Shown piece after piece: positions 35,768-35,876 of a DNA stretch of 48,696 bases. Position numbers and translations under genes: made by a program. Under the pieces are notes generated by a model that saw only the letters and a program-made list of their open reading frames with translations, was not told the origin of the DNA and did no database searches. The stretch covers positions 1-48,696 of the forward strand of contig JAQUBA010000008.1 of assembly GCA_028686985.1 (NCBI GenBank), given 5' to 3'. Source of the stretch: Candidatus Iainarchaeum sp. Lineage in GTDB: Archaea > Micrarchaeota > Micrarchaeia > Anstonellales > Bilamarchaeaceae. Positions within the stretch are counted from its first letter, which is position 1, and every line of letters begins with the position of its first letter.

Positions 35768-35789
35768 ACGGAGCTGGTGGGGGTTTATT

Positions 35790-35852
35790 CCGGCTCAGCA
35801 CTCAAGATTCTCATCATCATTTTCAGCCCATCCAAGTGCTCATCATCCATCC
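35790..35852 (-). ncRNA. C/D box sRNA (2'-O-methylation guide)
   Basis: Minus strand: ATGATGA (C)-gcacttggatggg-CTGA (D')-aa-ATGATGATGA (C')-gaatcttgagtg-CTGA (D); TATA-like ttttTATA about 24 nt upstream. Confidence 0.85.
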
Positions 35853-35876
35853 TCTTTCATGCGGACGGTATAAAAA

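Follow-up and report, generated by a model that had tools for sequence, protein, structure and literature searches.

A predicted free-standing box C/D sRNA with two guides for the intron-containing precursor of tRNA-Leu(CAA) in an uncultured archaeon

Which RNA would be modified by a solitary box C/D guide whose gene is found in the genome of an uncultured archaeon? The question is raised by a short element on the minus strand of the window (that is, the whole stretch of 48,696 nucleotides that was analysed), for which a preliminary description had proposed a canonical C/D box sRNA without naming a target. The sites found here lie not in rRNA, and the target is very probably the intron-containing precursor of tRNA-Leu(CAA), with the D guide directed at wobble C34 and the D' guide at U39. 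Sequence comparison suggests further that the guide bases are tied to an intron that is absent from the mature tRNA.

The sRNA locus and its setting

A single canonical box C/D sRNA (35846..35795, minus strand) lies inside an intergenic gap. A CorA-like transporter gene (plus strand) and an unassigned ORF (minus strand) flank the gap, each with its 3' end towards it, and a TFIIB gene and phosphoglycerate kinase are found farther out. The gap (35768-35876) measures 109 bp rather than the 110 bp first given for it. The 16S rRNA of the genome is archaeal. The features of the locus are as follows.

35795..35846, minus strand: box C/D sRNA core, from box C to box D, 52 nt (boxes, Rfam, pattern scan and homologues)
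35840..35846, minus strand: box C, ATGATGA (read from the letters; kept in homologues)
35827..35839, minus strand: predicted D' guide GCACTTGGATGGG, 13 nt (pairing with pre-tRNA-Leu(CAA), for which the support is mainly comparative)
35823..35826, minus strand: box D', CTGA (read from the letters; CTTA in G002)
35818..35822, minus strand: D'-C' spacer AAATG, 5 nt (read from the letters)
35811..35817, minus strand: box C', ATGATGA (read from the letters; TGATGA or ATGACGA in relatives)
35799..35810, minus strand: D guide GAATCTTGAGTG, 12 nt (11 contiguous Watson-Crick pairs with pre-tRNA-Leu(CAA))
35795..35798, minus strand: box D, CTGA (read from the letters)
35867..35874, minus strand: TATA-like putative promoter element TTTTTATA (read from the letters; kept in G001-G004)

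The four boxes, C (RUGAUGA), D' (CUGA), C' (UGAUGA) and D (CUGA), are exact and in order. The guides stand directly upstream of D' and D, and their lengths are within the norm for archaeal C/D sRNAs (about 10-13 nt). Box C' is placed here in the second register of ATGATGATGA, which makes the D'-C' spacer 5 nt. The preliminary description had read the order of the boxes, the guide lengths and the N+5 nucleotides (a U for the D' guide and a C for the D guide) correctly. Its TATA-like element is also present, at 35874-35867, although the end of this element is ~20 nt from box C, and not about 24 nt; it abuts, just downstream, the end of the upstream gene. The four sister genomes G001-G004 have a comparable element at the equivalent place, as TTTTTAT(A) or TTTTATA.

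The layout is unique in the window. A C/D-D'/C' pattern was applied in a strict and a loose version; either version has a single match in the window, at this locus, and none in 60 windows simulated with a first-order Markov model. The best Rfam match is snoPyro_CD (RF00095; 37.1 bits, E 1.7e-6), followed by weaker matches to many sR families; the gathering score of RF00095 (45 bits) is not reached, nor does any other Rfam family match the locus at its gathering score. (The D' guide is complementary in its 5' part to the end of the D guide, GCACU/AGUGC. This was considered as an extended stem and dropped as not needed, because GCAC of the sRNA in family f8 pairs with tRNA bases 3' of U39.) Boxes, unique layout and homologues at the same position bear out the canonical C/D sRNA on the minus strand: judged by these features, the locus encodes a canonical free-standing dual-guide box C/D sRNA.

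Probable target in the precursor of tRNA-Leu(CAA)

The core of the D guide, CUUGAG, hinted at the anticodon CAA. The tRNA-Leu(CAA) gene of the same genome (G000:C13:84668-84774) has a 22-nt intron at 37/38, in the context CCAGACUCAAG / AUUCCCGAAUGUGGGAGGAGCC / AUCUGG, and is located on contig C13, with the sRNA on contig C7. Eleven of the 12 D guide bases form contiguous Watson-Crick pairs with A31-G37 and the first four nucleotides of the intron (AUUC), placing wobble C34 at N+5. This duplex is calculated at -14.0 kcal/mol, as compared with -9.4 for the runner-up site among the genome's own 16S, 23S and 36 tRNA matches, and comprises 11 bp on the precursor as against 9 bp on the spliced tRNA. 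The complementarity to rRNA or tRNA that the preliminary description had proposed to look for is thus found, in a tRNA precursor.

The D' guide pairs across the other end of the intron, with its last two bases and A38-G43, so that N+5 is U39. In the genome under study this second duplex is weak (5 Watson-Crick and 3 GU pairs, -7.2 kcal/mol), and support for it is mainly comparative. Since both duplexes include intron bases, a search of mature tRNAs alone would miss part of the match; the precursor supplies a definite predicted target for a guide that looks weak or orphan when only rRNAs and mature tRNAs are searched.

Distribution of the locus

Boxes and guides are kept in relatives, a comparison that the preliminary description had proposed. 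BLAST finds the locus in all four other genomes of the genus that were searched (81% identity in two, 78% in one, and over the D half only in the fourth), and also matches it in other families of the order. The full box layout is readable in G003, G004, G057, G052 and G055, and in G002 with CTTA as box D'. Twenty of the order's 84 genomes match a pattern made up of box C', guide core and box D; none of the 84 matches the same pattern read backwards, which served as control. (One of the 20, in G072, has its match in apparent coding sequence and is probably due to chance.)

The D'-C' spacer is enlarged in five genomes. It folds as a clear hairpin in G001 (L124/L006), G037 (L137) and G039 (L011), and weakly in G050 (L131) and G049 (L139); the largest hairpin, in G001, reaches up to ~85 nt and -36 kcal/mol. 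Close relatives differ in the spacer hairpin, which appears to be gained and lost. Two homologues in family f5, L121 (G054) and L122 (G071), retain the D half CUUGAGUG-CUGA and differ in the 5' half, where they have ATCGAGGTATTGCCGAG in common; their first guide may have been replaced by one with another target.

A second C/D-like candidate, GTGATGA...CTGA...CGATGAGGA...CTGA, is located at L205:15890 on the minus strand of G002 and is the sole match of a loose C/D pattern in ~850 kb of that genome. Canonical C/D sRNAs look scarce in the genus by this pattern, which overlooks degenerate examples, among them the copy in G002 of the sRNA described here.

Covariation of guides and intron

The test covered nine genomes with both the sRNA and the tRNA. 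In every one of them the D guide has its best site within pre-tRNA-Leu(CAA) at C34, and the D' guide at U39. No rRNA site is equally stable for the D guide in eight of the nine, or for the D' guide in six (with the rRNA of a relative substituted where a genome has none of its own). The D' duplex is also longer in relatives: 11 bp in G052, 10 bp in G057, G050 and G055, and 9 bp in G003 and G001.

The introns of tRNA-Leu(CAA) in the genomes compared are 13-22 nt long and have no C/D boxes inside, and where their ends differ in sequence the guides differ correspondingly. Intron 3' ends GCU, GAG and GAU are matched by guide ends AGU, CUC and AUU, respectively. At the 5' end, G057 has an intron that starts with GUU and a guide with AAC where other guides have AAU. 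A compensating change is seen even within the genus, with intron end GCC and guide GGG in the genome under study, and GCU and AGU in G003 and G001. In 11 genomes, D' positions 1-3 have an observed pairing score of 23.5, while permutation gives a mean of 13.1 (p <0.0001); in a reduced set of eight genomes the two values are 17.5 and 9.8 (p 0.0008). The corresponding p for D positions 9-12 is about 0.03. These permutation p-values ignore the shared ancestry of the genomes. The D guide has its exceptions: in G052 and G082 it pairs with the exon alone, in G050 precursor and spliced tRNA fit it equally well, and in G037 the spliced tRNA fits it better. As far as comparison of these sequences can tell, the guide bases change along with the intron of tRNA-Leu(CAA).

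Alternative targets

The weakness of the D'-U39 duplex in the genome under study leaves some room for a genuine C/D sRNA that acts on C34 of tRNA-Leu(CAA) only, its D' guide being orphan or directed at rRNA. Eighteen sites in the genome's own rRNA are at least as stable as the U39 duplex (an example is 23S CCCGUUCAAGGGG, at -13.2), two f5 homologues depart from it in the 5' half, and among the tRNA-targeting sRNAs of Pyrobaculum, in the part of a review that deals with them, one guide is without a target (PMC7994747). We nevertheless regard this as unlikely: U39 keeps its rank as the top D' site in the precursor from genome to genome, the D' bases opposite the intron end change with the intron, and the best rRNA site for this D' guide is not the best for the guides of sister genomes.

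That the sRNA is an rRNA methylation guide would be the ordinary expectation, rRNA being the target of most archaeal C/D sRNAs, and its D' guide does have a 10-bp match in 23S; we consider it highly improbable, as the D guide has no site in its own 16S or 23S rRNA better than -7.2 kcal/mol, compared with -14.0 at tRNA-Leu. Scanning of the same 16S and 23S for D' targets yielded only matches that are not conserved in relatives, and these were rejected.

C/D protein machinery

Domain searches for fibrillarin and Nop, which were positive in control archaea, found neither in this metagenome-assembled genome (85% complete). Taken at face value, this would make the sRNA a decayed or unexpressed remnant in a lineage that has lost its C/D proteins. 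Such decay is scarcely compatible with intact boxes and guides, and with guides that still track the intron in sister genomes. Moreover, G002, of the same genus, has both proteins on one contig: fibrillarin by tblastn with a Methanocaldococcus sequence as query (52% identity), confirmed by Pfam PF01269 (E 2.7e-81), and a Nop match by tblastn (60% identity). Synteny between contig C8 of the genome under study and this G002 contig holds as far as a gene that lies ~0.8 kb before fibrillarin; C8 continues for ~1.2 kb beyond this last shared gene and then stops. (The final 1.2 kb of C8 is other sequence, and gene order there is not identical to that of G002.) A gap in the assembly is the likely explanation for the missing proteins; because G002 has fibrillarin and Nop, and C8 ends nearby, loss of the machinery can be largely set aside.

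Proposed course of modification

The established C/D pathway suggests how an sRNA with these two tRNA-Leu(CAA) guides would work. Once transcribed, it would bind L7Ae at the C/D and C'/D' turns, and then Nop5/56 and fibrillarin, to form an RNP in which fibrillarin would 2'-O-methylate C34 of pre-tRNA-Leu(CAA) by way of the D guide and U39 by way of the D' guide. Both duplexes span exon-intron junctions, and methylation should therefore precede removal of the intron. There is precedent for such an order: modification before splicing has been argued for tRNA-Trp and tRNA-Met (PMC2584109), and RNA sequencing in Methanopyrus kandleri is reported to place modification generally before intron removal (PMC3695527). 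Guide bases that track a removed intron allow the order, first methylation and then splicing, to be predicted by sequence comparison alone, in archaea that are uncultured.

This also suggests one reason for retaining a short tRNA intron. Perhaps the free-standing dual guide and the intron have co-evolved as a unit, in which the intron docks both duplexes and is retained because modification of C34 and U39 needs it, with the guide enforcing methylation before splicing; the proposal is tentative, and we think it somewhat doubtful.

Other features of rRNA and tRNA genes

The rRNA genes of these genomes vary in length. Matches to 23S extend over ~3600 nt in G002 (L047) and G050 (L048), and a 16S match in G044 (L060) over 3766 nt, which suggest insertions or introns. 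In the genome under study, the 23S match (L013) is just 2630 nt long and stops at a contig edge, and further tRNA genes with long or oddly placed inserts, uncalled by ARAGORN, are found at G000:C5:16351-16521 (L068) and G000:C12:144392-145368 (L070, L071).

Relation to known guides

RF00095 snoPyro_CD, the nearest Rfam family, is like the sRNA in box layout and spacing, and different in its guides. By target, the nearest known counterpart is a C/D sRNA of Pyrococcus that is predicted to act on the same C34 of the same tRNA-Leu(CAA), according to passages in PMC7994747 and, for P. furiosus, PMC7668247. In P. furiosus, in contrast, the tRNA has no intron (introns being confined to tRNA-Met and tRNA-Trp in the account that PMC7668247 gives of them), and the relevant portions of these two sources mention no U39 guide for tRNA-Leu(CAA).

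By organization, it is like the stand-alone C/D guides that use intron bases for Cm34 of pre-tRNA-Met, Pyrococcus sR49 and the Haloferax candidates, as parts of PMC2584109 describe them. Those are described for C34 only, whereas here both guides are predicted to act on one pre-tRNA, the second at U39 across the other junction. The literature consulted, of which coverage is partial, holds no description of a stand-alone RNA that addresses C34 together with U39 in a single tRNA with an intron, and an earlier report is possible.

The closest parallel in mode of action is sR50, the box C/D guide encoded in the intron of euryarchaeal pre-tRNA-Trp and described for Cm34 and Um39 in the pertinent parts of PMC7994747 and PMC2584109. 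Both, the present sRNA by prediction, are dual C/D guides for C34 and U39 of a single tRNA with intron bases in the duplexes, and both have the D guide over the 5' exon-intron junction on C34 and the D' guide over the 3' junction on U39. They differ in that the present sRNA has a gene to itself, equipped with a TATA-like element, and is directed at tRNA-Leu(CAA), and in that the guide lies outside the intron of its target, which is short and without C/D boxes. The tRNA-Trp(CCA) gene of the same genome (G000:C13:97375-97463; L039) has only a short insert, ~15 nt, also without C/D boxes, and therefore does not contain the intron-encoded guide. The sRNA thus resembles the guide of the euryarchaeal tRNA-Trp intron, in a free-standing and tRNA-Leu-directed form: as predicted here, it would be a trans-acting counterpart, aimed at the same C34/U39 pair in another tRNA, from an independent gene.
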